From positions 30,863,912-30,927,911 of the forward strand of contig OZ026848.1 of NCBI GenBank assembly GCA_964023205.1: DNA of 64,000 nucleotides. Reading direction: 5' to 3'. The position numbers were made by a program, and so were the translations under genes. Source of the DNA: Lutraria lutraria. Lineage: Eukaryota > Mollusca > Bivalvia > Venerida > Mactridae. The notes beneath the pieces were generated by a model. It made no database searches and had not been told where the DNA came from. It saw only the letters and a program-made list of their open reading frames with translations. Within the stretch, counting starts at the first letter, position 1, and each line of letters begins with the position of its first letter. Shown here one piece after another: positions 18,301 through 63,024 of the stretch.

Positions 18301-18640
18301 TATAATACTACTCACATTGGACATCAAATATAATACTACTCCCATAAGACATCAATATAATACTACTCACATCGGACATAAAATATAATACTACTCACAT
18401 CGGACATCAAATATAATAATACTCCCATAAGACATCAATATAATACTACTCACATCGGACATCAAATATAATACTACTCACATCGGACATCAAATATAAT
18501 ACTACTCACATCGGACATCAAATATAATACTACTCACATCGGACATCAAATATAATACTACTCACATCGGACATCAAATATAATACTACTCCCATACGAC
18601 ATCAATATAATACTACTCCCATAAGACATCAATATAATAC
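15386..18640. repeat. Minisatellite domain 2: 27/28-bp units with 870-bp higher-order duplication
   Basis: The unit is the domain 1 core lengthened by an insertion, giving a 28-mer starting CATCGGACATCAAATATAAT and a 27-mer variant with CCCATAAGACATCAATATAA. Neither or only one length preserves frame, and long ORFs vanish here. The block 15401-16080 recurs almost exactly at 16271-16950 (offset 870). Part of 16084-16270 recurs near 18313-18440, at an offset of about 2229. A diverged sub-block with CGGACATTACCGATGATA marks both duplicates. Confidence 0.95.
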
Positions 18641-21600: not shown

Positions 21601-22420
21601 TAACATCATATATAATACTACACACATCAGATATAATACTACTAACATAATATATAATACTACACACATCACATATAATACTACACATCAGATATAATAC
21701 TACTAACATGATATATAATACTACTAACCTGATATATAATACAACTCACATCAGATATAATACTACTAACATGATGTATAATACTACACACATCAGATAT
21801 AATACTACACACATCAGATATAATACTACTAACATGATATATAATATTACACACATCAGATATAATACTACACACATCAGATATAATACTACTCACGTGA
21901 TATATAATACTACTAACATGATATATAATACTACACACATCAGATATAATACTACTCACGTGATATATAATACTACTAACATGATATATAATACTACACA
22001 CATCAGATATAATACTACTCACGTGATATATAATACTACTAACATGATATATAATACTACTTACATGATATATAGTACTACTCACGTGATATATAATACT
22101 ACTAACATGATATATAATACTACACACATCAGATATAATACTACTCACGTGATATATAATACTACTAACATGATATATAATACTACTTACATGATATATA
22201 ATACTACTAACATGGTATATAATACTACACACATGATATATAATACTACTCACATAAGATATAATACTACACACATCAGATATAATACTACTCACGTGAT
22301 ATATAATACTACTAACATGATATATAATACTACACACATCAGATATAATGCTACACACATCGGATATAATACTATTCACATAAGATATAATACTTCTCAC
22401 ATCAGATATAATACTACTCC
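18641..22420. repeat. Minisatellite domain 3: 21-bp units with alternating variants
   Basis: The array returns to 21-bp units of mainly two kinds, CACATCAGATATAATACTAC and AACATGATATATAATACTAC, mixed in recurring order. A segment near 19831 recurs near 20986, at an offset of 1155 = 55 x 21. A third, diverged copy of the domain 2 marker block (CGGACATTACCGATGATAC) lies near 18935-19100. Open frames of up to 421 codons (19547-20812 plus) run on both strands and encode heptads such as NTTHIRY and SDVSSII. I treat them as artefacts of the 21-bp period. The array ends sharply at about 22420. Confidence 0.95.
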
Positions 22421-26800: not shown

Positions 26801-29800
26801 TTAAACTTTATTTCAAATTATATTTCAAACATACACACATACATGAATTGTGATAGTTACTAAGATAGGATATTTTGGATTGGAAAACAAGGATTACTTA
26901 TATAAATTCCTCTCCATGTGAAAGAAAGCTATGAGTCATGAAAAATACATGGTCAGTGATAAATATTTAATAATACATATCTGCAAAAATAATGTTAGAT
27001 GTTTGAAAACAGATTGTTTGAGAAAAAAATACTAGAAATGGTGGTTTCATGTTCACGGCACGCGGTCAGTCAGGAACAGGGAGACCGGCCTACTCAAATC
27101 GTTTTGTTGCTATAATGTAACGCTGGACGTCAAGAAACAAAGATTCGTTTTCTTCGTAGGAGAGTCTTTCAGAGCCATTCAAGAGGTTTGATAGGACAAA
27201 TGGACATTTGATGTTGGCAAAAGAAGTTGCTCGAGAGTTGGTATAGTTCGGACATCGCATAAGAAAGTGTTCGACTGTTTCTATGGATCCACAGGTACAT
27301 AAGGGAGAATCGACGAGAGACCGCCTGTGAAGGTCATGATTCAGAGAACTGCATCCGAGTCGGAGACGTGTGTGTAGAATTTGTCCGATGCGTGAGCCAC
27401 AGTTAAACAGAGGTAAAGACCTTGCTTTGTTTGTTTTGAGAGCTGATTTAAATGATTGCAATGTGAGTGCATTTTGTATAGGTGCAGGTAACTGATTCCA
27501 TTGACGTAATGTGTTTGGAAGAAATGAGGAGCTGTACGATTGTGTATTTATTTTAACTTGTCTTAAGTGTCTTAAGGTGTATGTGTTTTGTTGGTTTTGA
27601 TTTGTATTAGGAATCAGATTTGACAAATAGGATGGAGTGAGACCATGTATCATTTTATAGAAAAGAACAAGACGGTGATGTTTTCTTCTCTCTGTAAGGG
27701 TTTCCCATCTTGAGTAGTTTCTCTATGTTGCAGTATTTTGTAGCTCCTGTACAAATTCGCGCAGCTTCGACCTGGACAGATTCGATTTCATGTATTAAGA
27801 AGTCACTGCAGTTGTCCCACACAACGTCTGAATATTCTAAGATAGGCCGAATGAAAGAGATATACATCCTTTCAAGACACGATCGGTTTATTAGAAATTT
27901 AAGGGACCTCATTATGCCGATGCGTTGCCAAGCTTTCTTTAGAGTAAGTGAGATGTGGGTGTCCCACTTCAGATTTGAAGAAAAGGTAAGTCCTAAGTGT
28001 TTATGGCAGTTTACCTCTGCAATATTTACATGATTCATAGACAATGGAGGATGTATGGGCTTGTTTCTCTTCCTACTGAATATTATAGATTCTGTCTTCG
28101 AAGGGTTAAATGAGACAAGCCAGGCCTGGGACCATGCATGAATGGTTGCTAAGTCAGAATTTAACGTGATTGATGCTGTAGTTGGATCTTCTACTGTGAT
28201 GTAGAGACTAGTGTCATCTGCAAAGAGTCGTATGTTGGATTTGATTGAAGAAACGATGTCATTAATGTAGGTAATAAAGAATAGAGGACCTAAGATAGAA
28301 CCTTGAGGGACACCCGCGTTGATGGATAACCAAGAAGAAGTAGCATTTGCATAGACAACACGTTGCTTGCGATTGGACAAATAAGAAGAAACCCATGACA
28401 AGAGAGAGTCACATATACCAAGAGAAGAGAGTTTTGAAAGAAGACCACGATGCCAGACTCTGTCGAATGCCTTCGATATGTCACAAAAGACTGCTCGCAC
28501 TTCCTTTCCTTCGTCGAGTGCTTGACATATGTCGTTGTGAAGAAATGCTAGTTGGTTAACAGTCGAGTCTCCTTTGATAAAGCCGGACTGGAAAGGAGTG
28601 AGGAGATCGTTCATTACAAGATAGTTGTAAATATACTTATGGACACAACGTTCCATGAGCTTACCGATGCAGCTATGAAGGGAAATCGGACGATACTTTG
28701 ATGGTTTGGAAGGATCGGACTTTTTGAAAATAGGCGTTACATTGGCTAGTTTCCAGGAGTCGGGGAAGAAAGAGTTGGAAAGAAGTTTGTTATAGAACAA
28801 TGAAAGAGGAATTGCAAGTTCGTCTGTGGCCTCTTTGAGGAGTCTCGGGCTGACCATGTCGGGACCACATGCTTTGCTGGCATCAACTAGCTTAAGAGCA
28901 TCTTTGACGTCAGTTGGAGTGATGAAAATTTGTGAAAATGAGGACTCTGCTTGAAATATAGGAACGGGGGGAGCATTATTTTGATCTTCCACCGTCGATT
29001 GGGAACAGAAGAAGTGGTTAAGAAGGTCAGCTTTTTCTTTGTCAGTGGTGGCTTCGAGATTATTGTCAAGTAGTGTTGGTATTGTTTGTGATTGTGTCTT
29101 TTTTGTCAATTGTTTAGCTGTTTTGAACCAGACTTTAGCTGAAATGTTGGATGTATTTATTTTGTCAATTAGTTTATTCCTATAATTGTTTTTGGCTTGA
29201 TGTAGGTGTCTTGTTACTGTATTTCGTGCCTGTTTAAATGCTGCCCATGCTTCTGATGTATTTGATATTTTAGCTTTTTTATGTGATTTCTGTCTTTTTC
29301 TAATGAGTGTCCGAATTGTGTTGTTCATCCATGGAATGTCATTTGGTCGCACTGTTATTATCTTGTTTGGAATATTAGTAGTTGCTGCTGATGTGATTGT
29401 GTCTGTTATTGTGGCAGTCAATTCTTCGAGGGCGTTACTATTTAGAATGCTGTCCCAGTCTGTCGTCCGTAATTGTGCTCTATATTCGTCATAATTTCCT
29501 CTGTCGTAAAGCCAAATGCGACGTTTATACGTGGTGCCTGTTGGTTTATGAAAGAGAAGAACTGTTACTATTGGACAATGAAAACGAGTCAATTCAGGAA
29601 CAAAAGGGTCTGCAACAAAGCTAGAAATAACATGATTTTTGTTTTTAACAAATATAAGGTCTATGAGTGAGCTTGAGTGTTCCGTATAGTGTGTTGGGGA
29701 TGTTATGAGCTGCTCAGAATTGTATGATGACATTAGGTTAATTATCTTATTTGGTATTTGGCTAAGAATATTCATGTTAAAGTCACCGGTTACGATAACG

Positions 29801-32800
29801 TTATCAGAAGAAAAACTGAAGGCTTGGTCAATGCTCTGTTCAAGAAGAGTCCATGTGTCGTTGTTTGCATCTGGAGGACGATAAAAACCACCGAGTAAAA
29901 TGGTACGCTTACAAACAGTTAACTCAATCCACAGAGCTTCCAATCCGTTAATAGAAAGATCAGTTCGGATGATGGCATTGATACCTTCACGAACATAAAT
30001 AGCTACACCGCCACCAAGTCGGTTGATACGATCGCGACGGAATGGAAGTTGGAAGTTCGGAAGAGCGATATCGTTATCTGACACCGAGGAATTGAGCCAA
30101 GTTTCAGTAAAGACAAGAACGTCGTATGGTTGAGCTTCGACTTCCAGGATGTCAAGTTTGGGTCTGAGGCTCTGAATATTCACATGCATGATACTGAGTC
30201 CGCTCTTTAAAATCTGATGATAGTCTGAAAGAGAAGAGTTAGGTGAATCAGGTCCAGGGTTAGGGTGCACGTCTCCTGAAATGAGGACATGTAGAGGGCA
30301 CAAGTAAAGTAGCGTTTGTTTCTTGTAAAATAATGACAATCTTACAGTAAATAGCAATAAAAAGGTGCATCCGGATGGTACTGGGCGGCATCTAAATAAG
30401 AAGCTGTGAGCGGCTATGTCAAGGAGGATGGAACCGTATGCAGTATGTAATGCAAAATGCCGCCAGTAGAGATGCAGATGTTGTGGTATGACCAGCTACC
30501 CTGCTTCTGAAAAAGATCCGCGGGACGTGAACATGAACATTAATAGTGGGGAATAAAAAAGTAAATAATCTGATAAACGTGGGGAGTAAGTAAAGAAAAA
30601 AGGTTAATAATCTGAGGGATGTCATGATTATTGTTGATATGTCGGGTGATGAGAGTTAAGATACTACATTGAAGGGAATCACGAATTTCGGGTTGGTGCT
30701 TAATCGTGGAGCACAATTTTCAAATTGATAAGCAAACATTTATTTGACTAAGGTAAGATATTAGAGAAGTTGTATGTAATTAAGGAGTGAATTTTTTTTT
30801 AAATTTGTTATATTTTCACAAGGACAAAATGGCCAAAATATTTACCCCTAACAGTATATCATACATGTGTACATTTCTGATTTGTACAATCTTTCAATAT
30901 GCCGAGGCGTAAATGATTTAACTGGCATATAATTTTCGTCACATAATTTATTTTGCGATGCTGGGTTTATTCAGAGGTTATTCAGGCTCTGATTGACTAA
31001 GGCCAAAAAAAAAGAAATCAAACTGCAATTGCTTAACTGCTACCTAAAGTCGATCTCCAAGGATTTGTTGTTTTATTTCCTATCGAAATCCTGATGAACC
31101 ACAATCTCCAAACGCAAGATGTGTTAAAACGGCACCAATCAAATATGTTCTTTAATGCATAAATTACTACTTTCATTTTTCATATTATCGTTTAGAAAAC
31201 ATTGACTGAACCGTCAACTCTCAACCAACCATTCAATCATGGTGACAGAAGTTTAGCTGGTGTTTGGACATGTCCAGTAATGTCTAAAAATACTGAAAAC
31301 AGGTAATTTTAGTAGTAGACAAGAGTTGTACATACTGGTACTTGTTAAACGCACTCCCCATGATTTGCGCTCTGATTCTGGTTGCAGTATGCCTTAGACT
31401 GAACTCCCACATGTTGTTTAGTAATGTATCATTGTTTTCGTAACACCGGAGGTAAGTATGAGATTGGACGGACCCATCAAACTGGTTAAACACCAAATAA
31501 CGTTGCCACTGACCGTTCAAAGGTGGTACATACCTGCAAATTGCGTTTTTAATGGTCCTGTGATTTAGGTAGGTGTAATGTTGGAGCGTAATAACAAAAA
31601 CTAGATTTTAAGTCGACATCATAGTTTTTTTTTATTAAGCTCCAGTTTTTATTTTAAGAATATTATAAGACAAAAAATCTTCTCCGCACTAAGGCCGGTG
31701 ATCTTATATACTATCATAACTTTTGTCTACGTGTACCTAGATAAGTTGCCACGACATCAGTAAACAAATATTAAACAAACATGTTGATTGATATTACATG
31801 GTGAGATACAATAATAAAAGTTGATTTAGTATTGAGTAACACCATAATTACATTTTATACTACATTATTTGTTGTATAATACCATATATTAATATTACAC
31901 AACAGGGGCGTAGCTTGTCCTAAATAATGTGTAGGCACCTATCTAAGGGGGTCCGGGCATCTTTTCACCGTAGATTGCACGAGACGCATTCTGCAGCATA
32001 ATCAGGTAGGCCATAGCCTAACATATTTTAATATGAAGATCTTGCAGTTTTCCCTGAAAGATTAATTCATTTTGAGTTTTCAACTATCAATCGAATTTAC
32101 GCGAAAGTTGGCAACGTTTAGTAAGATCTACATTGTATAATATTCAAAAGTCATATTTGTTCCTATTCCCTTCGTACCTAAATATCTAAGGGAAACAACT
32201 CGAACTGACTTTTGAATCCAAAATAAATTTTCCCACGGGACCGGAAATTAAGCCTCAGTTTGCTTGTAATACAGAGCAAGTTTCAGTATGCCAGCAACCC
32301 CCTCCCCCCAAAAAATCGCCTGAAAAAATTACTTGTAATCCTGATTAATCTGATGTATTTATGTTTGTGTACAGAACTGATTATTGTTTTACTCTGTGTT
32401 TCAAGTGACACGTATTAGAAGAGTTCCTGGATCTCTTGGCTTATTTCAGATAATGGAATTATACTAAATTCACATATCGTTTTAAAAAATGTACTACAAT
32501 GGAAATAAGGGACACGGAAAATTCCACCCAGTCAAAAAAAACAACAACAACAGTCAAACCAACCAGTGTATACTTTTTTATTAGTCCAGGACTTTGTAAT
32601 TAAATATTTGTCTATTCAGATCGAAACATTTCGAATGGGACAGGCCAAAGACAGAAAGAAAAACTTTGGTGGAATCTGCATCCAAGTATCAGGCAATTTA
32701 TCTACAAAAACAGCTGAAGGAGAAAGATAAAGAGATGAGATTAATTACGAATCAGCTTCTAAAATCCAACAAAGAAAATGTTACATTGATCAGAGAACTA

Positions 32801-43250: not shown

Positions 43251-45772
43251 TTATGTAATATTTTCGTATATTTCCTGAGTATCAAAGTTTGTCAAACTGT
43301 CCAGGTTTTCATAATGTTCCATTTCTACGGTGGAGCTGTAGGGAGATACACAAATTAATTTAGAACTTAATATACAATTATATTCTACAACACACATTAA
43401 TAAAACACATGCTTTAAAGTGAATTAAAGGTATATAGAGTGTAAAGAAAATACTTAGATATCTCATTATACAAGTAACTAATCTACGTATTTCCTTATAC
43501 AAATAACTTAAAAATACAGATTCACACGCATTAATCAGTTCATTATTTGTTGCAATATATACTTTAAATGGTAACTCACATGTCCGTTTCATGCTCATGT
43601 TGAGTTTTTGTTATATTTCCCATCTTATCAACCGTTTTTGTAGTGATACCTGAAGTATACACATATGATATGGTTTTGTCTGTTGTTACATACTATAATA
43701 TTGAAACATAATAAGCTGTCACTCCTACAATTCTGAATAGTTGACAAGTTCAATTAGTCACGTATTTTCAGCCATAAAATGGTACGCGGTTACATTAATT
43801 GGGAGATGAGAGATCATTTCTGACAATTTAAGAGTCAACTTCGAAGAAAAAGCACTAAACTTGTACATATTTGTTGGTATGTTCATTGCCTGCTATCAGC
43901 TTCAGTGACATGGTACTGGACAATGAGAAAATGGCAAATGGAAAAGACATAGAAAAGTTGAAGATTGGACCAAGCAATATAAGGTATGATGCTTTGATAC
44001 TCGAACAGACAGGTTCGTGTCGAGAAAGTATGCAAAGGTAACCATTATTAGTGGGCAAACTGAAACAATTTCCACGTATATTTTCTATGGTGTAACTTTG
44101 TACTCGGCATCACCAATAATACAAATGATTTTTAATCAGTAATTAGAATCATTTACTCAATGTTAGCAAAACACGTCAATAGAACATATTTAAATTAATT
44201 ACAGATATACATCGGTTAAAATCTATTCAATGTTTGAATATGTAAATATATAAAAAAACAGATTATAAAGTCAACTATATTTTATATAGGCGTTACTTGA
44301 ATGGACATTTTTTCAAAAAGTTTCACCACCTTTAACATGTATGACAACAGATCGGTTGACCGTTCTCCCTGTAAAATTCTGTGTTGCAGTACAAACGTAT
44401 TCTCCAGACATATCAGATGTTATTTGTCCAAGAGAGAGAATGTTTGATGAACTACGTCCCCAATCAACATCACATGATGGAGAACATTCAGCTTTGCATA
44501 TTATATCAGCCAGTGTATCTCCAGATGACAAAAAGTAGGCTGCGATCTCAGGTAATAAGGATATGCTCCATTCTAATAATAAAATGTGCCCATAACATTA
44601 AGATTTCAGAAATTAAATTACTTAATTTGAGAAAAATGTTTACTTTGTCAATATTCAAAGCAATTGATTTACACAGTAACGTACTCTATCAAAAAGTGAT
44701 TTGTAAACATTCAATTCAGAAAATCTACCGTTTACTTCATATTTATTTTCAATCAGATACGAACCAATAAATAAGAAAATCATTAGTAGTGAACGTGCCA
44801 CTTTCACTGAAAACAAAATGCACATACATGTCACAATGTACGTATAAATGTTGCGTTTGATATTCAACACGAGACGAATCAAACTATACAAACCATTGAC
44901 TTCAACGTAAAGACTTCTTTCTACCACCCGTTCAGTACCATTTATTGTAGCCCGACACGTATACATCCCTTTTGACGATTTATAAACCTTTCCGAGACTT
45001 AGAACATTCCCTTTACCAGATCTGTCCCAGGTTATCTCACACGATGGGTTGCAATCCGTGGAACATGTAATATCAGGTAAAACATCTCCTCTTGTAATGC
45101 TCTATGGGCTCAACTGAAGAAAAGACAAACACACTTTTAGTGTTTACATAACAGAAAAACACACATTGAATGTGCTTACCGATTATAATACACATAAGAC
45201 GTTAATTCATGGACGATGTGATTTTGTAAATACATTTTTTGTAAGGTGTTTATTTCAAACTCAAATTACAACCTCTCTTCAACGCACGAATCAAACAATC
45301 ATGATTCTATCAATGTTTGAAGTTTTGTACTCCCTTTGTATTTGTATGAATTTGTAAAGATGTGAATAAAAGATTTCCAAACATCAAAGACTTTCACACA
45401 TACGTAAGTCCTTGCAAACATGTCATCATATTGAGATTGAAATAGCCATGCGTAACTTCCTGTCCTATTGTTTAATTATAAAAGAACTTACACAATACGC
45501 TCAGGGTCAGGTTTATATCATGGACATCACCATTATCTTCTGTGATACGATATGTCACATTCTTTGCATTCAAATGTCTCCGTATTCTCATAATTATCAT
45601 TCGTCCATCTTGTTCTATGGAGTCTGTTTATGTGAAGAATGCCGACCATTTAACAGCCATGTCGCTGTAGCATTTACACGAGGTCTGACCATACTTGAAG
45701 CAGGTGGTGTTGCATCAATATAAGCCGGTAAAAATTCCTCAAATGTTGTAATGTTTTGTTGGTTCAAAATAT
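43251..45772 (-). pseudogene. Copy B: broken duplicate of the Ig-ITAM receptor
   Basis: Exon equivalents of copy A are present at 45772-45492, about 45113-44894, 44572-44330, 43649-43580 and 43335-43251. The first is one base shorter than in A; the shift creates a TAG at 45617-45615. The second has lost the first roughly 35 bases of the exon and is out of frame from its acceptor. The transmembrane exon is missing: a deletion of about 580 bp relative to A has its junction near 44127. No signal-peptide or first-domain exon is found upstream, where homology to A is interrupted near 46050. The last two exons are intact and keep the YENL...YENI tyrosine pair. It is a pseudogene by these breaks, although a soluble or partial transcript cannot be excluded. 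Confidence 0.85.
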
Positions 45773-47559
45773 CTAAAAAAAATACATACCATTATGAAGA
45801 TTGAAGATATGTTTTTGATATGTTGTCAACAAACCTTTGGAGCCATAACATGCTCAAACACTTAAAACATACATAATTATCAATATAATTATCAGTCAAT
45901 ACATGTAATAGTATAAAATAGACTTTTCAAGGCCAATATCTGGTCCATTATAATACAAATGTACGTACCATAAAGGATGTATTTTACATACTTACTTACT
46001 ACGGAAATACCATGGTGCATGCTTAAGTCCAAGCATAATACATGTCTCATACTAGGTTTCAACAGTGTTAATAACATCAATGAAATTTCGCGACTGTCTT
46101 TTTAAAGACATTTCTTGTTTCAAAATGTTTTACTTTGGGAATGGAATAACAAACAGAATTTCGGAATCGAATGATGTATGGATGATACAAAGTATATACA
46201 ATCGTATGGCACATTCGTCAAAATATGTATTTGATGTTTAGAGGTGTTGTGTTGGTAACAGTTTAGGTGCAGATATAACGTTTACAGTAGTTTGTTAGTC
46301 AGGCAATAGAATACACCAACGATCATTCGTTAGTTTGGTTTTCTTGTTTATAAAATACCTCCTGCATAATATAAACTGGAACCACTGACCGTCAGATCTA
46401 TAGAATGTACAGTAAAACATCTGAAAAAAGGCCACCTATGGGAAAGACAAAATATGATCTTTATTGACTGGTGATCTTTATTTAGAGATCATTTTCTTCT
46501 GTTCTTCTAATTCCGCTGTTCAACTTCATTAGTGTTTTTATGAGTTAACTATTATCTGATAACAATGTAACAGGGAGTTACTGATTCAGGGAAAGTACAT
46601 GCATTATGAGATATAACATACCCTGCTAAGTTGGTATAAACCTTTTACAAAATAACGCAATAAATAGTTTCTGTATTTATTTATTGTTAATATCAATACA
46701 TAATTAATACACAATGATGAAATAACATCATTACATATTCAATGAATTAATTCTATAAAAGTTAGAACAATGGACTATTGGTTAATCAAAATAAAATATA
46801 TCAACTTAAAAACTAAAATTATAAACTATTGCTATATGATACATTAATGTTATTTTTTGTTGTTACCACAAGATGATGCATACAACACAATACAAGCCAG
46901 TATTTTTCTTCTGTGTAACTAATGTATCTTGAGTAACCTTCAAGTGACAGAATAAAATCTTATTTGAGGTCCATCTTAAATGACCACATTAATTCAAGTT
47001 CTAATGTTGTATAATTAAAGCTCGATTTAAATACTAGTAGGCATTATTTATTACTTTCCGAACAACAATATAAGTTTTAAGAGGTTTTATATTTCATACA
47101 AGAACAACTGAAACAATCCTTTTGCATAAGTAAAGCATACAGCTATACATTGTACTTAATGAATTGTTATGAATTTGTTGACAAAAGCCATATTGGTTTT
47201 CGAAGCTTTAAGTCTACTTGAAGCATGGACTAGGCAAAATCCTCAATGAAAGTTAGCTACAAAATGTATAAGAATTAGTTATCTAATTATGCTGCTGAAA
47301 AACTGTTACTAGTGGATATGTCATGACAACCATTTAGGTTGCTTTCTGATGTCTGCCCATTGATGTCTTGTGCATTTGATTTTACTATTTGAACTTTTCT
47401 GAAAACTTAAAAACGTTATTACTGACAGATATGTCTTGTTGATTTGTTTGTTCATTTCTATTGTTTTTAAGTTTCTATGAGCTAAATCAAACAACAATGA
47501 AAGTTAATGTGTGTGCAGAAATTAGAATATTTGAACGCAGTTCAGACAAATATAAGCAA

Positions 47560-47772
47560 TATGAATATGTAAACATGCAGGTTATAAATACAAGAAACAA
47601 CTTATAATAGATGAACATATAAATAATATGAATATGTAGACATGCAGGTTATAAATGCAAGAAACAACATGTAATAGATGAACATATAAACAATATGAAT
47701 ATGTAAACATGCAGATTATAAATGTAAGAAACAACATAATTATTTTAATTGATGAACATATAAACAATATAA
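47560..47772 (+). repeat. Tandem repeat, ~68-bp units, three copies
   Basis: Units start near 47562, 47630 and 47697, each with GAATATGTA, ACATGCAG, TTATAAAT, AAGAAACAAC and GATGAACATATAAA. The third has a short insertion. It lies about 0.5 kb beyond the 3' end of copy A. Confidence 0.8.
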
Positions 47773-48257: not shown

Positions 48258-51200
48258 CTATGTAATATTTTCGTATATTTCCTGAGTATCAAAGTTTGTC
48301 AAACTGTCCAGTCCTTCATAATGTTCCATTTCTACGGTGGAGCTGTAGGGAGATACACAAATGTAGAAATTTTCATATAATTATATTCCATAACTTAAAT
48401 CAATAAAACAGATGACTTAAGGTGAATTAAAGGTACATAGAGTGTAGAGGACATACTTATAAAGATCTCATTATACAATCAACTAATTTACATGTACTCA
48501 TTTCCTTATATAAATAACATAACAATACAGGATCACACGCATTAATTAGTTCATTATATGTTTTTCTTTAAACGTATATTTTAATTGTTTACTCACATGT
48601 CTGTTTCATGCTCATGTTGAATTTTTGTTCTGTTTTCCATCTTAACAATCGTCTTTCTTGCAATACCTGAAGTATACACATATGATATGGTTTTGTCTGT
48701 TGTTACATACTATAATATTGAAACATAAGCTGTCACCCCTACAATTCTGAATAGTTGACCAGTTTAATTAGTCACGTAATTAAAGGTATAAAATAGTACA
48801 CGGTTACATTGATCTGGAGATGAGAGATCATCTCAGACAACCAAAGAGTCTACTTCGAAGAAAAAGCACAAAACATGCAAATAGTGTTGGTATGTTCATT
48901 GTCTAGTGTTGGCTGAGTTACATGGTACTGGATATTGAGAAAAGTGCAACTAGAAAAGACATAGAAAAGTTTAAGATGGGAGCCACTCCCGCCCAGCAAT
49001 ATAAGGTATGTTGCTTTGATAGTCGAATAGTCAAAGGTTCCTATAGAGTAAGTATGCAAAGGTAATTATTATTAGTGGACAAACTCAAACAGTTTCCTCG
49101 TGTAATTTCTATTTTGTAACTTTGTATTCGGCATCATTAATAATACAAATAAAAAAGCATCACATAACACATGAGTAGGTGTGTCTTGTGCACTGAAAGC
49201 TGTGCAAATAACAAAATGCGTCATGAATTGAAGACCAGCCTGCACGTTGTTATAAGGTGAGGAAATGTACATTTTGTGCAGTGCACTTTCTCACCATCTT
49301 TTTCAACCGCGACATATTTTTCTTTCTACAGATGTGCGTATTGTGTTTGATTTATTTATGTTTGCATTAAATTTGATGGAACATTTTAGACACAAAACAG
49401 CCAAACCAAGGACTGATTTGGAATTCGTAATTAAATAAAAGTTTAAGTGGTGTCGTCTCTGTGCCAATGGGTAAATCCCGGGTAATAGTTCACAATTTTG
49501 AATTATTGACATATGTCAGGAGAGTAAAGACAGACTGACTTGATTATTCTTTAAGACTTAATACAACATACCTTTCAAACAAGAACAGTTCCTGTCAGAC
49601 GTTCTGAGCCAGTATAGAGTAAACACGAAAATGAATATCAATGTGACACCTTGCATTGTTCCCAATATGGCAACGGCCGCAATGAATGATGTTTCATCTA
49701 AAACATTATGTTGTATGAACTGGATTATTGCTTTTTAATTAGTAATTAGAACCATTTACTCAATGTAAGCAAAACAATCGTCAATTGAACATATTTAAAT
49801 TCATTAAAGATATTCATCAGTTAACATCTATTCAATGTTTCATTGTGTTAATATAAAAAAAATAGATTATAAAAAATCAACTATCATATAATGTTATACA
49901 TATTGGCGTTACGTGAATGGAATATTTCATTTTTCAACACCTTTAACATGTATGACAACAGATCGGTTGACCGTTCTCCCTGTAAAATTCTGTGTTGCAG
50001 TACAAACGTATTCTCCAGACATATCAGATGTTATTTGTCCAAGAGAGAGAATGTTTGATGAACTATGACGTCCCCAATCAACATCACATGATGGAGAACA
50101 TTCAGCTTTGCATATTATATCAGCCAGTGTATCTCCAGATGACAAAAAGTAGGCTGCGATCTCAGGTAATAAGGATATGCTCCATTCTAATAATAAAATG
50201 TGCCCATAACATTAAGATTTAAGAAATTGCATTACTTAATTTGAGAAAAATGTTTACTTTGTCAATATTCAAAGCAATTGATTTACACAGTAACGTACTC
50301 TATCAAAAAGTGATTTGTAAACATTCAATTGAGAAAATCTACCGTTTACTTCATATTTATTGGTAACATTTTTGTTTTCAATTAGATACGAACCAATAAA
50401 TAAGAAAATCATTATTAGTAAAGTGCCATTTTCACTGAAAACAAAATGCACATACATGTCACAATGTACGTATAAATGTTGCGTTTGATATTCAACACGA
50501 GACGAATCAAACTATACAAACCATTGACTTCAACGTAAAGATTTCTTTCTACAACCCGTTCAGTACCATTTCTTGTAGCCCGACACGTATACATCCCTTT
50601 TGACGACTTATCAACTTTTCCGAGACTTAGAACATTTCCTTTACCAGATCTGTCCCAGGTTATCTCACACGATGGGTTGCAATCCGTGGAACATGTAATA
50701 TCAGGTAAAACATCTCCTCTTGTGACAATATAGCTTGTCCCTGAAGGGCTGAATTGCAATGGCGAATATGGGCCATCTGAATATGAAAATAATTTATTCA
50801 AACAAATATATTACTATGTCACTCGAGTGGTAATGTCATATAAGAAAAGACAAACACACTTTTAGTGTTTACATAACAGAAAAACACACACATTGAATGT
50901 GCTTACCGATTATAATACACACATACAAGACGTCAATTCATGGACGATGTGATTTTGTAAATACAGTTTTTATCGAATTACAACTTCTTTTTTTCAACGT
51001 ACGAATCAAATGTTTGAAGTTGTGTACTCCCTTTGTATTTGTATGTATTTGTAAAGATGGGAATAAAAGATTTACATACATCGATGACTTACATACATAC
51101 ATACATACATACATAAGTCCTTGCAAACATATCATTTTATTGAATCTGAAATAGCCATGCGTAACTTCCTGTATTATTGTTTAAATATAAAAGAACTTAC

Positions 51201-53992
51201 ACAATACCCACAGGGTTAGGTTCACATCATGAACACTACCATTGTCTTCTGTAATACGATATGTCACATTCTTTGCATTCAGATGTCTCGGCATTCTCAT
51301 AATTATCATTCGCGCATCTTGTTCTATGAAGTTTGCAGTCCGTGAAAAATTCAGGCCATCTAACAACCATGTCGCTGTAGCATTTACACGTGGTCTTACC
51401 ATACTTGAAGCACGTGGTGTTGCATCAAAATAAGCCGGTAAGAATTCCTCAAATTTTGTTATGTTTTGTGGGTTCCAAATATCTGAAAATGCATGCCACT
51501 ATGAAGTTTGAAGATATGTGGTTAATACGTTGTCAACACTTTTGTAGCCGTAACATGCTCAAACACTTAAAACATACATATTTATGAATATACAAATGAG
51601 CAAATTCATAATACAAACTTTTTTTCAAGACCAAAGTCCGGTCCATTATAATTAAAATCTGCGTATCATCAGCGATGTTTTTCTTTACATACAAATAACC
51701 TTACTTACTACGGAATACCATAGTACATGCTTAAGTCCACGCAAAATATTTGTCTCAAATTATTTTTGTTACAAGTACATATTTGACGAGATTCCATAGA
51801 TTAAATATCGTGTTTACAAATATCATACCACACGGGGTACCAAGTTATTTTCAATTGAACTATATTAAACAGTTATATAATGATAAGAAAACGTACAATA
51901 CCTAAGACAAACAGTTCCCAACAATGTCTTGGTAACAAACGAAGCTCATAAATACCATAATCGTCAATTGTGACATTATATAATGTTATGATTAAAGCAC
52001 TTTCATTAGTGATTGTTAAGTTGACTCTGTCATCTTTACTGTAAATACGCAGTGGAGGTAAATAAGCGTACAACAAGGTTTTATACGAAGGCATTCTTCT
52101 ATAGAATGTCACCCTACGCACTACGTTCGCAGTGATGTTAACAGTAAACGTCGCATTGTCTTCATTCTGCACAAATAATGTATTATTGAAATCACATCCT
52201 GAAACAAAACCAGTGTTAACGGTACCAACATGTACAGTGATACAAAAATGATAATGTTAATTATGTCAAGAAATGTTTTATACCTGTAAGCAATAAGTAA
52301 CAATAAAATAGTTTGACACAAATCAATACCTAGGATAACACGATAAAGCTGGTCATAGTTCCACTTATTTCTATTGTGGATCTAAACGTACTGAAACAAA
52401 TAAAGGGATGATCGATGGTCGAGTGGCAAAGCGCTGGACTACTAATGGCCATTGCGTTGTTCGATTCTCGGCTCTGCCTTTCGAATTTCTCAGGGATGCC
52501 TTCTCAATGTCCCATCCCAGTAAAGAGACAAGTACCGTGTCTAGATCATCACGGGGAAAAGGGGCGAGATGGGTGTCGGTGCTTTGAACCGGTCACGATA
52601 AAAACTAGGGATATATACGGATATAAATTCCTAGTCCTCCTGCGTCTTATATTCCCCCGCTCTCTGTGTCAGCTCTGAAATGGCCATAGCTATCCAATGG
52701 GCTGCTAAACAACAAATAAATAAAATGGAAAAGAAACAAGCAAATATAAAAATTCTATTTAAAAACAAATTTTGATACAAATGTTATAAATAAGGTCTGT
52801 CTAATTATCTACATTACGTTTAAGCTGTTGTGACATGCAACTGTTACAATGTTGTAAGAAGTCAAGTTGATGTGGAATTTAATCAATTTTAGTGTTGCAA
52901 GCAGCATATACATTTGTATGTTTATTCAATAATAGATCTACACAAAACAAAGACAAAATGACAGTTTATATATGTATACATCCGTGCATGTAATATATCA
53001 TATTAAACAATTTGACATAAAACATGCAGCACAATTACATTGTAATAAGCCTTTTAAATCGAGAATTTGTATATATACCTTACTTTATAATCATTATAAG
53101 TACACCAAAATGTTTTTAGAAGGTATTTCTCTCAATTTTCTTAAATCTAAGTGATAAGTCATTCCTTAGCTTATAAATTAAGCAAATGAGTTTTTCAAAA
53201 CAAATTACGAAATAACAAACAGCATATCGGACTCGAATGTTGTGATGATACAACTGTATAATTATACATTTTCGTATGGCACATTCGTCAAAATAAGTAG
53301 TGTGCATATTGTGTCGGTGACAATTTTGTTGCAGATACTGTATTTTCATTTATCTTCGTTGGGCTCAATTTTCGTGGTTTTTATTAAAATCGCCATTTCG
53401 TGGGGATATAAATTCGTAGATTTTGATTTTTGAAAGGAAAAGCATTACCTCTGCATTTAAATTCGTGGGATTTGATTTCGTGGATGAGCAGACCCACGAA
53501 ATTCACGAAATTTAATCTCCAACGAAGATTAATGATTCCACAGTATTACATTTACAGCAGTTTGTTAGTCTTTATTTAGAGGTTATTTTTCATCTTAATA
53601 ATCAATGACGATTTTTAAAAGAATGGCCTCATTCTCAAGGTGGCCTTTTCGGAGGGGACTGAAAACACAGGTTGATTGTATAGCAACAATTTCAGAAACA
53701 TTGCTGTTTATATTAGTCACACAATAGGTTGAAACGCAAATGTTAAATTCGGATGATCAATTCGACTAAGCTCGCATGACAACATCCGCCATATTGATTA
53801 TTGATATTTCAAAATTACTATGACTGGATGCACGCGACGCTTAGGTCAATATGTGGTACCAAAGGGTCATTACTATATAATATAGATATAATGGTGATTT
53901 AAAAACTTACTCGATGTAAATCCATCTACTGCACATACATTTACAACTAAAAACACGGTCACAAAACATAACAACGATTTGTAATCCAACAT
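48258..53992 (-). CDS. Copy A: Ig-superfamily receptor with ITAM-like tail, 480 aa
   Basis: Eight minus-strand exons: 53992-53911, 52198-51902, 51482-51201, 50776-50522, 50186-49941, 49697-49572, 48666-48597 and 48342-48258 (TAG). They close exactly in frame (1443 nt). Exon 1 is a signal peptide (SLLCFVTVFLVVNVCA). Exons 2 and 3 (residues 28-220) are Ig-like with NATATWLLDG and DDYGIYEL but lack the canonical cysteines. Exons 4 and 5 (221-387) are Ig domains with C-x3-C-x3-C-x3-W and MYTCRA or EYVCTA. Exon 6 has a transmembrane helix (about 392-416), then RNCSC. The tail has Y461EGL and Y476ENI, 11 residues apart, an ITAM-type spacing. This suggests a surface receptor signalling through Src/Syk-family kinases; the ligand is unknown. 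All boundaries through the transmembrane exon are phase 1. It is arranged head-to-head with copy C. Confidence 0.88.
51088..51113. repeat. (CATA)n microsatellite
   Basis: Six perfect CATA units in the copy A intron between exons 3 and 4. The equivalent place in copy B (near 45400) has only one or two units, so the array expanded after the duplication. Confidence 0.85.
52406..52725 (+). mobile_element. tRNA-derived SINE (Ser/Leu-like head)
   Basis: The head has the A box TGGTCGAGTGGC at 52417-52428 and the B box GTTCGATTC at 52459-52467. A GC-richer body of about 200 bp follows, and the tail CTGCTAAACAACAAATAAATAAA is a typical A-rich SINE end. It is a different family from the SINE at 3537. 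It lies in intron 1 of copy A, in the antisense direction. Confidence 0.8.
53336..53545. mobile_element. MITE at a TA target, with an empty-site paralog
   Basis: Inverted termini of about 27 bp (TACTGTATTTTCATTTATCT inward on the left; TACTGTGGAATCATTAATCT inward on the right) enclose 210 bp with several CGTGG and CCACGAAAT blocks. Copy B keeps the uninterrupted site near 46266-46290 (GCAGATATAACGTTTACAG), which shows insertion at TA in copy A after the duplication. No transposase frame, so non-autonomous, probably Tc1/mariner-type. Confidence 0.8.
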
Positions 53993-56496: not shown

Positions 56497-59400
56497 ATGT
56501 TTAATTGTATAACAGTTATATGTTTCGTTGCCGTGGTTGTAGTTGAGAATGTGATTGCAGAGGATGGATTTACCTCGCGTAAGTTCGTTTTAAAAACTAC
56601 CATTACATTAATTTCATAAAGTAATGGTTTTCATTACTTAATAACGTCATGTGCGGCACTGGCATATTTAGATTGCGTAAACCATTATTATCTGTATGTG
56701 GAATCCTTATTTATTTTTCATTATTCATATTCTAACCATTTCCCAAAACATGGTACATAGGAACTACAGTACACAAAATGAGCATATAAAGTGTACAAAC
56801 TAAAATATAATACTGACTAAAAATTTTTATCTGTAAAATTGTAAAATGATATAAGTAAAAAATGGAAACCATGTCACAAACGTTAAAATAAAAGGGTAAC
56901 ACAAAAATACATCCTTATAAAATGAATGTAAATAACCAAGGAAAAAACTGCAAACAATAATTAAATATGAAAAAAAAGAAAATGGAATAAAAGTTATCTT
57001 AGAGATAATTATTATCACAGACTTTATTTACTATCACAGAATTTACATAGTTATCTAAGAATTGTTGATATTCAAAATGTTTATGGTAGGCCTATCACAC
57101 ATTATGAAACACCCTGTATGTATGGCTAAGAAATAAAAATAATTCAATGTAGCGAATGTCGGCGGACATCAACTTCTTGTGACTTAAATCTTAATTGAAA
57201 TACAACACTTAACTTATGAACACATTTAAACATCTGACTGATATTTGGTTAAAATGTATGAAGATGTCGATGTAACTTTTAAACACTATAATAATAAAAG
57301 TATTTGTCGCTGGGTGTAATTTGATATACAAGAATATGTAAACACGTGTAGAGTATAAACAGTTTGTGCAGGAGCCTATTATTGTGCAACAATTGTCTTT
57401 ATCTGTTCAAGGATACATCATTTCAAGCGTAACTCCAAACCTAATCGCAATGTGATCAGGAAATAATCATCAAGTAGTTGCCTACATAATATAATCAGAA
57501 TAAATCAGGGAAATTGTGTCAACTTGAATGTGTCAAATTTGTTGTAGTTCCCAATAGGACTGATGGGCACGTGGAATTACTTCTATCTAGATAAAACAGT
57601 TAGCTGTTCCAACAGGAATTGACTAAGGAGCGTATTTGATAATCAAGTACCAAGTCAGATAATTGAGGATATTTAGCACGTTCGATCATCCAACAAACTA
57701 CTTTAGATGCTATATCTGAAGTGAAATTATCACAGCGAAATAATTTATCGGCCGAATCTCGAACCCAAACCTCTGCAATTAACAGTCCTGTTCTGTAGGA
57801 ACACATTTGTCTCGGAGCACATTTGTATAACGTAAAACCAATGCGATCTCATTTGTCTCACATGAGACAAATGGGGACCTCAAATGTCTAGCAAAACAGA
57901 CACATTTTTGTGACTAATGTGCTCCGATCAAGTTTTTTAAGGGACAGGAAAGCACATTTATCATTTATTTAATGAAACAGTAAACATTAATGATCCGCCG
58001 TGTTTAAAGTCTTCAAGCCATAGCTTTTAATATCAAAATGGAGAAAACGATTTTACCTAATGTGCAGTCGATTTATATACAATTAAATGCACATTAATTA
58101 TCGATTGCATACATTTGTGAAAATCCCGATTTGGAGATAGGACACAGATGGAAGTAATTGATAGACTTAACAATGACTATAATTCAACGCGACTAAGTTA
58201 GTCCTTATACAAGAGACGTTCAATAATATTTGTCACTGTGCTTCTAGTAAATGTTGCGTGAGAAATAGTTTATAATTGATGCATTGAAGTTAAAGGGGTA
58301 ACATGACTATATAAACCACTAGATGGCGCTGGGGCATGTTTCATATCAGAGAACCCTTTTTGGAATTTTTTAATAAACTTAGGAAATAAATACTTTGAAA
58401 ATTCTCACAAACGTATTTTACTCCATGTCAAATCATTTCATCCAAAAATCTTAGTTATATATTAATATTATTTGTTACTTTGAGAAAAAGTTTAAACCTG
58501 TCAAGCGGAAAATTTGAATTTCCCAGGAAGTGTGGCTACTTGCTGATAAACGCTCTGTTTGTAAACAGAGGCACCAGATATAGTTCAATTTTTTAGGTCA
58601 GCAATGTTATTGTATACATGGACGATCTCATTTATACATGTTTAGGTAACACGAATACTGTTGTAATTTGCTATAGACCAATTTATGAAGCTTTATAATC
58701 ACTGTCCTTTGTGGCGCAATTGGTAAAGCACAAAGTTGGTGAATGTCACTGCGTCTGACGGTAGGCTTCATTTTTATTTTCATTTTTTTTTCATTTTTAA
58801 TAAAAGTTAACTTTATATGCATCGATAAGAAATTATTATTCATAGGTTTTTTATTTTTAAATTGTTCCGTTAAATTAACAAAAATATAATAACCTCACAT
58901 TGGTAATTAGGATTTATATATTTCAATTGTGGAGTGATAATACAATAAGTAAAAATCGGTCACGTTCAGGTGTTTAGTATTTTTACATAGTGTTTGAAAT
59001 TATTCATTTGCATTCGCGATTCCGTCCAGTAACATGTATACAAGAAATAAAAAAGAGGGATACACCAGAGAACAAATGCATTTCTTCTTTCCCTTTTCTC
59101 TTTTGAAAATTGATAAAAGGGTGCTATTCAATGTATATACATACATGTAACAATAACAAACATAGTTCAATTAATTATTTATAAAAATAAATGGATACAA
59201 TAATTTAAAAAGAAAGTGCCATTGATTGAGTTCGGACCACACACATCTGCTTCATTTTGTAAAACTGTTATGTATGTACAATGTACATGCCACCTTATCC
59301 AATACACCATGACTCTGGTTCAAGTGAATTACACTTTACTACGGATTTAAATTATTTGGGCAATCAATTTACAGTGATAACCTTTACAATGGTATCGTCC

Positions 59401-62400
59401 AGTATTCTATAAGAAAATTGAACTAACAGGAGTACAGTAGTCAGTTGATGACTCACCCATTATTGTTCTATTTTTAACAACAGAGAGTTTAACAGACAGG
59501 TAGTATTAGGCATAAAAGTTTACATAGCCCAACCAACAAGAGTTTCCCCTTTAAATCCAAATACACCCTTATTCAACTCACTGACTCACACACTAATTCA
59601 CAAAAAAATTATAAGGGATTCCGGAGAATTATTAACATTTCCTGTCTAATACATTTTCAAATGGACCTCGACCATGATTGTTCAAGTTGTAGCACTTTGG
59701 TCAAAATTGGCTGGGCCTCGTTTTGTTTTATTTTACATGGAAAATCTTTAAAAAATACTTTTGGTAGAAACTACAATGCTTAGAGCTTAGATATTTCAGA
59801 TGTAGCTTTATCTAGTGGACCTCTGTCAAGTTTGTTCATATTATGGCCTTGTGGTAAAAGTTGGCCCCGCCCCGGGGTCACTTGGTTTTACATAGGCTCA
59901 TATAAAAAAAACTGTTTGTCTCTCAGGACCTTTTTCTAATAATGATATAAAGATATCATGTCCCTCTTGTTGATTAATGAACACTGTACAACTGTTTTTA
60001 TTACAAACAAGTCATGATCACGCATACTAGAAGTTTGCGCTATAACGCAAATGCGCTTGTCAATTATTGTACAGTTGTTGACTAGTGAGCTATTGTATTT
60101 GATGTGATAACTCACCGGAATTTTTTACCGAGGCGAAGCTTTATGTATAACTAATTACAAAGGAAGGTGAATATATCACAAACAATGAATATTGTTCTGA
60201 TTCTCTTTTTTACTTGAAGAATTCCGAAACATTTATTAAATATCATGTTACACTATTGAATATAAAAATTTACGTTTCACGATTAATCTGACTTTCACCC
60301 AATCAAACTGTATTTATTTATAGATTGAAATTCAGAACTTCCGCTGTAAGAAAAAGCAAGCATTAAGTATGGATTTCAATATTTGGTCTTCCGTACCGTT
60401 TTATAGTCCATCATATGAACGACTTCGGTCATAATCATGTTAGCATTTTTCAAAGGTGATATTTGGAATCGTTAATTAAAACTTCATTATGGTATGCACT
60501 TTTAGATTTTTGGTATCCACAAAAGACAACATACGAGGAGAATGTACTGGCTTATATTGATGCACCGTCATCTACTTCAAGTATGGTAAGGTCACGTTTA
60601 AATGCTACAGTGACATGGTTGTTAGATGGTTTGAATTTTTCAAAGACAACAGACTTTATAGAACAAGATGGACGAATGATAATTATGAGAATGTCGAGAC
60701 ATTTGAATGCAAAGAATGTAACATATCGTATTACAGAAGACAATGGTAGTGTTCATGATGTAAACCTGACCCTGACGGCATTGTGTAAGTCTTAGTATTT
60801 CTTTATACATTAGGACATATATCATGTATAGCTATTACATTCTCTATATAATTAGTATTAATTACATGTTAAATACCATTTTATTCAGATGTATATCTCA
60901 TTAATTGTGTAACGCTTTTGTGTGTTTACTTTACCACTACTGCAAACATAAGTAGTATCCTGCTTGTTTGAATTATACGTTAAGTAAAATAATTGTAGTT
61001 TGAGTTTGAAGTAAGCACCGTACAATTAATTAAAAAATCACATCGGTAAGCGCATTCAACGTGTGTGTTTTCAGTTTTGTAGACACATCGAAATCATGTT
61101 CATCTTTTCTTCTGCAGTTGTACTCAGTGAAGCATTAATACCACTCGAGTGACATAATTACATATTTGTTTGAATAAAATATTTTCATATTTAGATGGGC
61201 CATATTCACCACTACAATTCAATCCTTCTGGAACAAGTTATATTGTCACAAGTGGAGATGTTTTACCTGATATTATATGTTCCACGGATTGTAACCCACC
61301 ATGTGAGATAACCTGGGACAGATCTGGTTTAGTGAATGTGCTAAGTCTCGGAAAAGTTGATAAATCGTCAAAAGGAATGTATACATGTATGGCAACGAGA
61401 AATGGTATAGATCGTGTGGTCGAGAGAAGTCTTTACGTTGAAGTTAATGGTTTGTAAAATTTGGTTTGTCTCTTGTTCAATGTCAAAGGCTCAACATTGA
61501 TACACTGGCTCATGTATGTGCCACTTGTTTTAAATAGTAATGAAACGTACACAAGTAATGCATTTCATTATAAAAAATTCATTATTGAAAAAATATGTTC
61601 ATAAAGTTACTTAATTTAACGCTTGCAACAATTGCTTTCTAAAACAATTGCTGTAATTAAAATGAGTCTAAACAGGTTTAATCGACAAAAAGCAAAATCC
61701 TTCTACCACATAGTTTCAAATACTATTTAATACATTATTTATCCAATTCATATAACGTATTCTTTTAGACGAAACTTCATTCATCGCGGCTGTAATCATA
61801 TCGATGCAATGTGTAACATTGATATTCATTTTCGTGTTTACTGTATACTGGCTCAGAACGTCTGACAGAAATTGCACTTGTTTGAAAGGTATGTTGTATT
61901 GAGTTTAAATCATAATGCAGTCAATGTATACTCGCGCGTTTCACTACTATCCTGACATATGTCAACAATTCAAATGCGCACTACTAGCCGGATTTTACTA
62001 TTTGGCTCAGAAATGGATGGCTCCACTTATTTTCAATAAAAAATACACTGCTGGATTCCACTGGTTTTTGTCGGAAGTGTTGAAACAATTTACAATTCAA
62101 ACGTGGATCATACAAGTTACATATAATGCATACTATTTTATCAATTCGTACAATTATTAAAACAGCAGGTCCTCTGTTACTGGGTGTCAGACTCAGACTT
62201 CCCAAACAACCGAGCTTTTTTTCATTTGTTTTTGTTTCGTTACGACTAGTACAAAGTAACACAGAATAGATGAACAAGATCTTCAAGTCATTCCACCGAT
62301 TGTATTTTAATAACTTTTCTATATATTTTCCAGTTGCACTTTTTTCAATGCCCAGGTCTATGTCACTGTCAAAAGCATACCAACAATATTTATATATTTA

Positions 62401-63024
62401 GTGCTTTCTCTTCGAAGTTCACTCTTCGATCGTCAGAAACGATCTCTTATCTCCCAATCAATATAATCGCCAACTATCTATATATTAAATCACGTGACTA
62501 ACTACACAAGTCAACTTCATAGAACTGTCTACTTGTAGGGATGACAAGAATATATGTTTATAATTAACTTTAAGGTACTACAGCAAAGGAGGTTGACAGG
62601 ATACAAAACGGAACAAAAACGCAACATGGGCATGAAACAAACATGTGAGTAAACAAATAAAATATACATAGCTACAAATTATATACTAATGCGTGCCAAA
62701 CTGTATTATCAAGTTATTTTCTACAAGGAAAAAAATAGATTAGTTGATTATAATATTGATTTGATCTTTGTTTTTTCGTGAACCTTAAAGTAAACAAACA
62801 CTAATAACACGATACGTATAAATAAGTTCTCTATTCTCTATCCGGTATTTATTCAAGTGTTTATTTCATCTGTTATAAAACCTACAATTATATGTAGATT
62901 TTATGATAATGTATCTCCTTTTAGTTCTACCATAGAAATGGAACATTATGAAGGACTGGACAGCTCGAGAAGCACAGGACCTGGTACTCAGGATGCTTAC
63001 GAAAACCTTAAGTTAGGTGTGTAA
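56497..63024 (+). CDS. Copy C: reduced Ig receptor paralog, plus strand
   Basis: Exons 56497-56578 (signal peptide, with DGFTS as in copy A), 60506-60784 (cysteine-free Ig-like), 61195-61449 (Ig with C-x3-C-x3-C-x3-W and MYTCMA), 61769-61888 (transmembrane), 62575-62644 and from 62925. Phases agree throughout. It lacks equivalents of A's first domain and of its second cysteine-bearing Ig exon; I found neither in the 3.9-kb first intron or the 0.3-kb gap before the transmembrane exon. The tail reads MEHYEGL, then 13 residues, then YENL, one residue longer than a strict ITAM spacer. If exon 6 is read through, the stop is TAA at 63022-63024 (301 aa). Alternatively a donor at 63017 splices to a possible exon at 63976 that leaves the window. 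It is divergently transcribed from copy A. Confidence 0.78.
57811..57930. repeat. Nested foldback
   Basis: An outer inverted repeat (CGGAGCACATT at 57813-57823 and its complement ending near 57927) encloses a 24-bp near-perfect palindrome at 57850-57873 (CATTTGTCTC...GAGACAAATG). The motif ACATTTGTCTC also recurs just upstream at 57802-57812. Probably a small foldback transposon remnant. Confidence 0.65.
59640..59990. repeat. Dispersed repeat with GC-rich core
   Basis: A locally GC-rich stretch (GGCCCCGCCCCGGGGTCACT) lies in a framework of phrases (ATGGACCTCGACC and TGGACCTCTGTCAAG, ACTTTGGTCAAAATTGGC and GTGGTAAAAGTTGGC) that repeat within the element about 180 bases apart. This looks like an internally duplicated repeat of a kind common in marine invertebrate introns. 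Confidence 0.45.

Follow-up and report, generated by a model that had tools for sequence, protein, structure and literature searches.

Structure of the receptor gene

The stretch analyzed here, called the window, comprises 64,000 nt of the genome of the bivalve Lutraria lutraria (G000:C17:30863912-30927911). Its minus strand carries a gene, designated copy B, whose predicted product is an immunoglobulin (Ig) superfamily receptor with two tyrosine motifs in its cytoplasmic tail. Copy B runs from 53992 to 48258 in 8 exons, exactly as a preliminary description of this DNA had placed it, and the in-frame closure claimed there was confirmed: all 7 introns are GT-AG, with introns 1-6 in phase 1 and intron 7 in phase 2, and the coding sequence of 1443 nt (stop included) contains no internal stop and yields 480 residues. 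The signal peptide and single transmembrane helix proposed in that description likewise correspond to the two hydrophobic peaks of the protein, one N-terminal, where the top 19-residue hydropathy window starts at residue 7, and one further peak in which such windows start at residues 392-398. By hydropathy the product is predicted to be a type I membrane protein, and it contains 18 N-x-S/T sites. The features of the gene are as follows.

53911..53992, minus strand: exon 1, start codon and signal peptide MLDYKSLLCFVTVFLVVNVCA/VDGFTS (the cleavage point is a guess), donor GTAAGT
51902..52198, minus strand: exon 2, membrane-distal V-set-like domain, probably Ig, from splice sites and V-set profile score
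51201..51482, minus strand: exon 3, conserved domain, from splice sites
50522..50776, minus strand: exon 4, Ig domain with CxxxCxxxC...C cysteines, Ig_3 match at residues 231-288
49941..50186, minus strand: exon 5, second cysteine-rich Ig domain, from its likeness to exon 4
49572..49697, minus strand: exon 6, transmembrane helix at about residues 392-416, core without a basic residue
48597..48666, minus strand: exon 7, cytoplasmic juxtamembrane stretch, from splice sites
48258..48342, minus strand: exon 8, tail end with YEGL-x11-YENI and stop codon
48309..48320, minus strand: first tyrosine motif YEGL (Y461), from the exon 8 reading
48264..48275, minus strand: second tyrosine motif YENI (Y476), from the exon 8 reading

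Two repetitive features accompany the gene. A tandem repeat with a unit of 67 bases and 2.8 copies (window 47550-47738) lies about 0.5 kb downstream of the last exon, and the start of a segment in intron 1 (window 52400-52660) resembles a tRNA-derived short interspersed nuclear element by eye; ARAGORN reported no tRNA in the 64-kb window.

Gene copies and their arrangement

When the whole copy B protein was searched against the genome (728.5 Mb), 54 exon-level matches were obtained at E<=1. Most of these, 40, cluster at 30.907-30.989 Mb on C17; another 4 on C17 lie near 35.40 Mb, C3 has 5 near 35.73 Mb, and 5 weak ones are located elsewhere. Reading 184 kb around the window resolved 8 copies within about 84 kb (43 to 127 kb in window coordinates), two of them minus-strand (A and B) and six plus-strand (C, D, F, G, H and I), in addition to copy K on C3. 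Judged from these matches, copy B is a member of a tandem-duplicated receptor gene family in this bivalve. Copies A and C are arranged as follows, where x11 and x13 denote the number of residues between the two tyrosine motifs.

43254..45773, minus strand: copy A, degenerate paralogue, exons 3, 4, 5, 7 and 8, tail YENL-x11-YENI
56497..63024, plus strand: copy C, exon 1 (56497) and exons 3, 4, 6, 7 and 8, tail YEGL-x13-YENL

Exon 3 of copy A is broken into two frames and its exon 4 contains a stop; exons 1, 2 and 6 were not found for copy A, nor exon 2 for copy C. Exon 1 homologues are also present in copies D, F, G, H and K. The Ig-type exons vary in number, being exons 2-5 in copy B and exons 2-4 in F, H, I and K, with an extra exon-4-like exon in D and G, and among the stretches read exon 5 occurs only in copies A and B. 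Exon 7 of D and I is represented by weak matches only, and copy D has an additional exon-6-like stretch with a stop at 72180. In the model of copy K one residue at the exon 7/8 junction is probably wrong, which leaves the tail motifs unaffected. The relative at C17:35.39-35.41 Mb contains Ig exons, and no tail exon was recognised by eye in the three minus-strand frames downstream of them; it is excluded from the tails counted below.

Immunoglobulin domains of the ectodomain

With the whole copy B protein as query, Pfam returned Ig_3 at 41.3 bits (cut-off 30) over two matched stretches, the better of them in exon 4, and I-set at 26.6 bits (cut-off 23.7). With at least one domain above a curated cut-off, copy B is by sequence a member of the Ig superfamily. 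Exon 5 aligns with exon 4 at 38.6% identity (E 9.4e-20), and a profile of exon 4/5-type domains, which carries C-x3-C-x3-C...C, clearly matched Ig chains in the PDB, the best being carcinoembryonic antigen (E 4.3e-16). Exon 2 scored 25.7 bits against Pfam V-set, just under the cut-off of 26; V-set was matched at E<=1 by 6 of the 7 exon-2 relatives, and the profile of the exon-2 family matched many Ig chains in the PDB weakly (best E 5.6e-05).

Exon 3, examined in 8 relatives, gave no Ig match in Pfam or the PDB, nor did it match the Ig exons of its own receptor family. A structure model of exon 3 consists mostly of strands at low confidence, with a predicted local distance difference test score (pLDDT) of 51.7, and exon 2 modelled alone reached a pLDDT of 37.7. 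Because exon 3 lacks a match to any Ig family and its model is of low confidence, we label it a conserved domain and not Ig. The four Ig-like exons of the preliminary description thus stand in part: profile matches make exons 4 and 5 firm Ig domains and exon 2 a probable one, whereas exon 3 as an Ig domain is unproven.

Transmembrane segment and cytoplasmic tail

The tail of copy B, which ends in ...EMEHYEGLDSLTNFDTQEIYENIT, contains Y461xxL and Y476xxI with 11 residues between them (YEGL-DSLTNFDTQEI-YENI, residues 461-479), as previously proposed. It matches the pattern YxxL/I-x6-12-YxxL/I of the immunoreceptor tyrosine-based activation motif (ITAM), the limit of 6-12 being that of the preliminary description. 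Fc-gamma-RIIA has an ITAM spacing of 12. The classical longer consensus also has an acidic residue at position -3 of the first tyrosine, a position at which accepted ITAMs vary. In copy B this residue is Met, so the acidic -3 residue is lacking, and Glu is found at -2 of both tyrosines. The tail includes one YxN, in the second motif YENI, which we take to be a Grb2-type site. A scan of the copy B tail revealed no immunoreceptor tyrosine-based inhibition motif (ITIM, [ILVS]xYxx[LIV]), switch motif (ITSM) or NPxY pattern, and an ITIM/ITSM reading was rejected for this copy on that basis.

Pairs fitting the ITAM pattern arose in 421 of 100,000 shuffles of the 63-residue copy B tail and in 655 of 100,000 random generic 64-mers. 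Such a chance rate for a single tail is suggestive, not decisive, and it is the comparison among copies that carries weight. The tails of nine copies compare as follows:

A: YENL-x11-YENI
B: YEGL-x11-YENI
C, F and G: YEGL-x13-YENL
H: YEGL-x11-YENL
I: YEGL-x11-YESL
K: YEGL-x13-YADL
D: YEGL followed by QYLE and a stop, without a second motif

Within this genome the first YxxL is therefore present in 9/9 tails and a second YxxL/I in 8/9, and because the second motif follows the first in eight of the nine related tails, chance as the sole explanation of the motifs was rejected. YxN occurs within the second motif of A, B, C, F, G and H and is absent from those of K (YADL) and I (YESL). The string HYEGLD is identical in all 8 tails compared by codon (all but A), its codons differing by synonymous changes only, at His (CAT/CAC), Gly (GGA/GGT), Leu (CTG/CTA/CTT) and Asp (GAC/GAT). 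That the residues are unchanged though the codons differ is a pattern of selection on the protein.

Of 8 copies, only D has a basic residue (Arg) in the core of the transmembrane segment, and a receptor paired with an adaptor was rejected on this ground. Since copy B itself has no basic residue there, nothing points to an adaptor, and the absence fits a receptor that signals by itself. The preliminary description of a type I Ig receptor with the two-tyrosine motif in its own chain is in this respect supported.

Variation among the exons of different copies

Synonymous divergence (dS) is uneven along the gene, with means of 0.31 for exon 3 and 0.37 for exon 4 as against 0.82, 0.78, 0.74 and 0.86 for exons 1, 2, 6 and 8. 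The means omit pairs without a computable value. The ratio of nonsynonymous to synonymous differences per site (pN/pS), pooled over pairwise values that are not independent of one another, was 0.60 for exon 1, 0.70 for exon 2, 0.42 for exon 3, 0.26 for exon 4, 0.44 for exon 6 and 0.47 for exon 8, the last from pairs with few codons each (24-32 in those listed). Exon 1 was sampled in 6 copies, exon 2 in 7, and exons 3, 4, 6 and 8 in the same 8; the sample excludes copy A and the copy at 35.4 Mb, as well as exons 5 and 7 and the extra exon-4-like exon of D and of G. The distal domain encoded by exon 2 is the most divergent of the Ig-type exons (0.70 versus 0.26 for exon 4). In the exon 2 tree copy D groups with F and G (support 0.955), while in the exon 6 tree it groups with I (support 0.998, with the boundary of exon 6 in I slightly misplaced), and several further nodes in the exon trees have weak support. 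Taken together, the low dS of exons 3 and 4 and the discordant exon trees suggest that exons have been exchanged, or converted, among copies.

SH2 domain proteins in the genome

A search of the genome for SH2 domains listed 43 matches, and 23 of these stretches were read. At C16:22.30 Mb two tandem SH2 exons match SHP2 (best E 1.7e-36), and at C8:5.71 Mb two tandem SH2 exons match PLC-gamma (best E 4.2e-20). Further SH2 stretches look by eye like Csk, Src-type, p85 and RasGAP domains. An SH2 exon at C20:15183625 was tried as a candidate for Syk and left unassigned: its nearest PDB entries are PLC-gamma, followed by SHP2, p85 and ZAP-70, it matches PLC-gamma better than ZAP-70/SYK, and the exon downstream of it does not have the look of a kinase by eye. 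Separately, three tandem SH2 exons, Csk-like by eye, lie at G000:C14:20158885-20162185 and may be one multi-SH2 gene or local duplicates. A Syk-type kinase would be expected in this genome, because invertebrate Syk/Zap70 homologues are reported to co-occur with CARD-CC and Bcl10, and the Bcl10 lineages include molluscs (PMC5978004, in the portion available).

Proposed function and alternatives

The copy B family probably consists of single-chain, tyrosine-signalling receptors of the activating kind, and an activating output is favoured over any other. In such a scheme the distal V-type domain would bind ligand and the receptors would cluster, upon which a Src-type kinase would phosphorylate Y461 and Y476. 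Proteins with SH2 domains could then dock, a Syk- or Shark-type kinase gripping the two sites together where the spacing permits, and Grb2, PLC-gamma or PI3K-type proteins each binding one site. A tandem-SH2 kinase could span both tyrosines in the x11 copies, and in the x13 copies and in D docking at single sites may weigh more. Signalling of this kind would have an activating effect, such as phagocytosis by hemocytes or recognition between cells. Transcription, ligand binding, phosphorylation, partners, the sign of the signal and an immune role are all inferred.

Several observations weigh against this reading. The spacing of x13 in four of the eight complete tails (C, F, G and K) is beyond x6-12, copy D has lost its second motif, and the overall constraint on exon 8 is unexceptional, its pooled pN/pS of 0.47 being near those of exons 3 and 6. 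The pN/pS of exon 2 stays below 1, and positive selection is accordingly not shown for the distal domain. Among the partners, SHP2 is present in the genome, with which an inhibitory outcome would be possible, and none of the 23 of 43 SH2 matches read was shown to be Syk or Shark, no search directed at these having been made. The preliminary description had staked its proposal on conservation of the two tyrosines across orthologues; within this genome they are kept among the paralogues as counted above, and the protein database searches returned no orthologue from any other species. As regards the ITAM-like tail of that description, copy B, with its x11 spacing, retains the designation, as do A, H and I with the same spacing (4 of 8 complete tails). 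On the tails read, the x13 spacing is a limit on the ITAM claim for the whole family, not for copy B.

Some of these points would also be accounted for if the tail were a pair of separate SH2 docking sites, with Grb2 on YEN[LI] and PLC-gamma or SHP2 on YEGL, giving a MAPK or adhesion output and not acting as an ITAM. We regard this as possible but doubtful. It would accommodate the x13 tails, the YxN in the second motif of six copies, the retention of the first motif alone in copy D, and the PLC-gamma and SHP2 exons of the genome. However, both motifs have L/I at +3 in 8/9 tails, 4 tails have an x11 spacing within the ITAM window, and copies K and I keep the +3 L in a second motif without YxN.

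It is improbable that the receptors are inhibitory, their tyrosines recruiting SHP2 to damp signalling. SHP2 with both of its SH2 exons is encoded in the genome, and the oyster receptor CgIgIT2 is termed an immune inhibitory receptor in the title of reference 93 of PMC11999971, to go by that title, yet the copy B tail lacks [ILVS]xYxx[LIV] and has Glu at -2 of both tyrosines. Least probable is an adhesion or neural-type Ig superfamily protein without immune function whose tail tyrosines are YxxPhi endocytosis signals, for although YxxL/I also fits the AP-2 endocytosis motif and adhesion molecules make up many of the solved Ig domains closest in sequence, the two motifs are retained together near the C-terminus, and the local copy number and exon exchange would be atypical of neural adhesion genes.

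The locus may tentatively be likened to the paired-receptor clusters of vertebrates, in that exon exchange and gene conversion would join one conserved tyrosine tail to a V-type distal domain that varies and to Ig exons whose number differs from copy to copy. A switch between x11 and x13, or loss of a motif, might then tune or redirect the signal, giving germline-diversified recognition of self and non-self or of pathogens. With its divergent distal domain and inner exons that are more uniform, the locus is a candidate source of diversity in recognition that would need no somatic rearrangement. Tails of x11, of x13 and with the second motif lost also lie next to one another here, a natural series for how far ITAM spacing can stray before a tandem-SH2 kinase ceases to read it.

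Comparison with known receptors

Among the titles and abstract openings listed for the open-access literature, none pointed to this bivalve family, which is weak evidence of absence. Draper has a CED-1-type ectodomain of EGF/EMI repeats, whereas the ectodomain of copy B is Ig. Like copy B, Drosophila Draper-I is an invertebrate receptor with an ITAM in its own tail, and Src42A and Shark act downstream of it, according to the available part of PMC4503800. ITAM/ITIM or hemITAM motifs are likewise described on the candidate allorecognition Ig receptors Alr of Hydractinia and fuhc of Botryllus (PMC12065747, available part); these belong to other phyla, have an allorecognition role and are likened to copy B by description.

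In style the nearest analogue is the dog CEACAM set, a likeness of architecture only. Within the portion of PMC2110893 available, human CEACAM3 and dog CEACAMs are single-chain ITAM receptors, and CEACAM3 and the dog CEACAM1-related proteins are, as in the copy B family, single-chain Ig receptors with a C-terminal ITAM. The dog copies are also multiplied in a species-specific manner, some have lost the ITAM, and gene conversion is discussed for them. The same portion places a phase 0 intron within the first YxxL of CEACAMs, while both motifs of copy B share exon 8, and for this reason the likeness looks convergent.

Among bivalves, the review PMC11999971, in the part available, reports CgIgIT2 of the oyster Crassostrea gigas as an Ig receptor with an ITAM. 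By this description it is, like copy B, a single-chain bivalve protein with Ig domains (five are reported), one transmembrane helix and its own tyrosine motif. The text of the review says ITAM for CgIgIT2, and the title of its reference 93 says inhibitory. An oyster paper has 'BCR-like signaling' in its title (PMC6994640), and the available parts of PMC7430831 and PMC5877582, which cite it, name an oyster Siglec-like protein and contain nothing on the copy B family.

Searches of a protein database (E<=1e-3 and 1e-5, and 1e-20 with P0002 as query) returned only Mercenaria mercenaria P0002, in a database that possibly includes few bivalve proteins. This CEACAM20-like protein shows 29% identity over 49% of the query and its tail reads YVDL-x11-YDEL by our own count. 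It resembles copy B in its C-x3-C-x3-C-type Ig domains and x11 tyrosine pair, and differs in not being an orthologue of the whole copy B protein. By its sequence, then, a related clam Ig protein carries an ITAM-spaced tyrosine pair. As the sole relative in the database, it also lends indirect support to the probable mollusc named in the preliminary description.

An ITAM in the receptor chain itself, as proposed in the preliminary description, is present in copy B but was already described for CEACAM3 and Draper and reported for CgIgIT2 (in the parts of those sources available). The family adds a clustered set of single-chain ITAM-like receptors from a bivalve to the fly, cnidarian, tunicate and oyster cases, and we consider it a sound but not revolutionary find, since single-chain ITAM receptors are already known elsewhere.

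Other features of the window and genome

A minisatellite array of ~9 kb with periods of 21 and 28 and a unit like ACATCAgATATAATACTACT occupies window positions 13455-22419. On each strand several frames run through it without a stop, which results in long spurious open reading frames. On the minus strand at 27093-30495 is a frame of 946 codons resembling a non-LTR (long terminal repeat) retrotransposon, endonuclease- and reverse-transcriptase-like by eye and followed by an overlapping shorter frame. Elsewhere in the genome, among the Ig-domain matches listed, five of equal score lie ~2.7 kb apart at G000:C9:8865929-8876959, which may represent a recent tandem array from a different Ig family. 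Also among the matches listed, those at G000:C20:16297000-16477000 are dense over ~180 kb, which suggests a second large Ig gene cluster.

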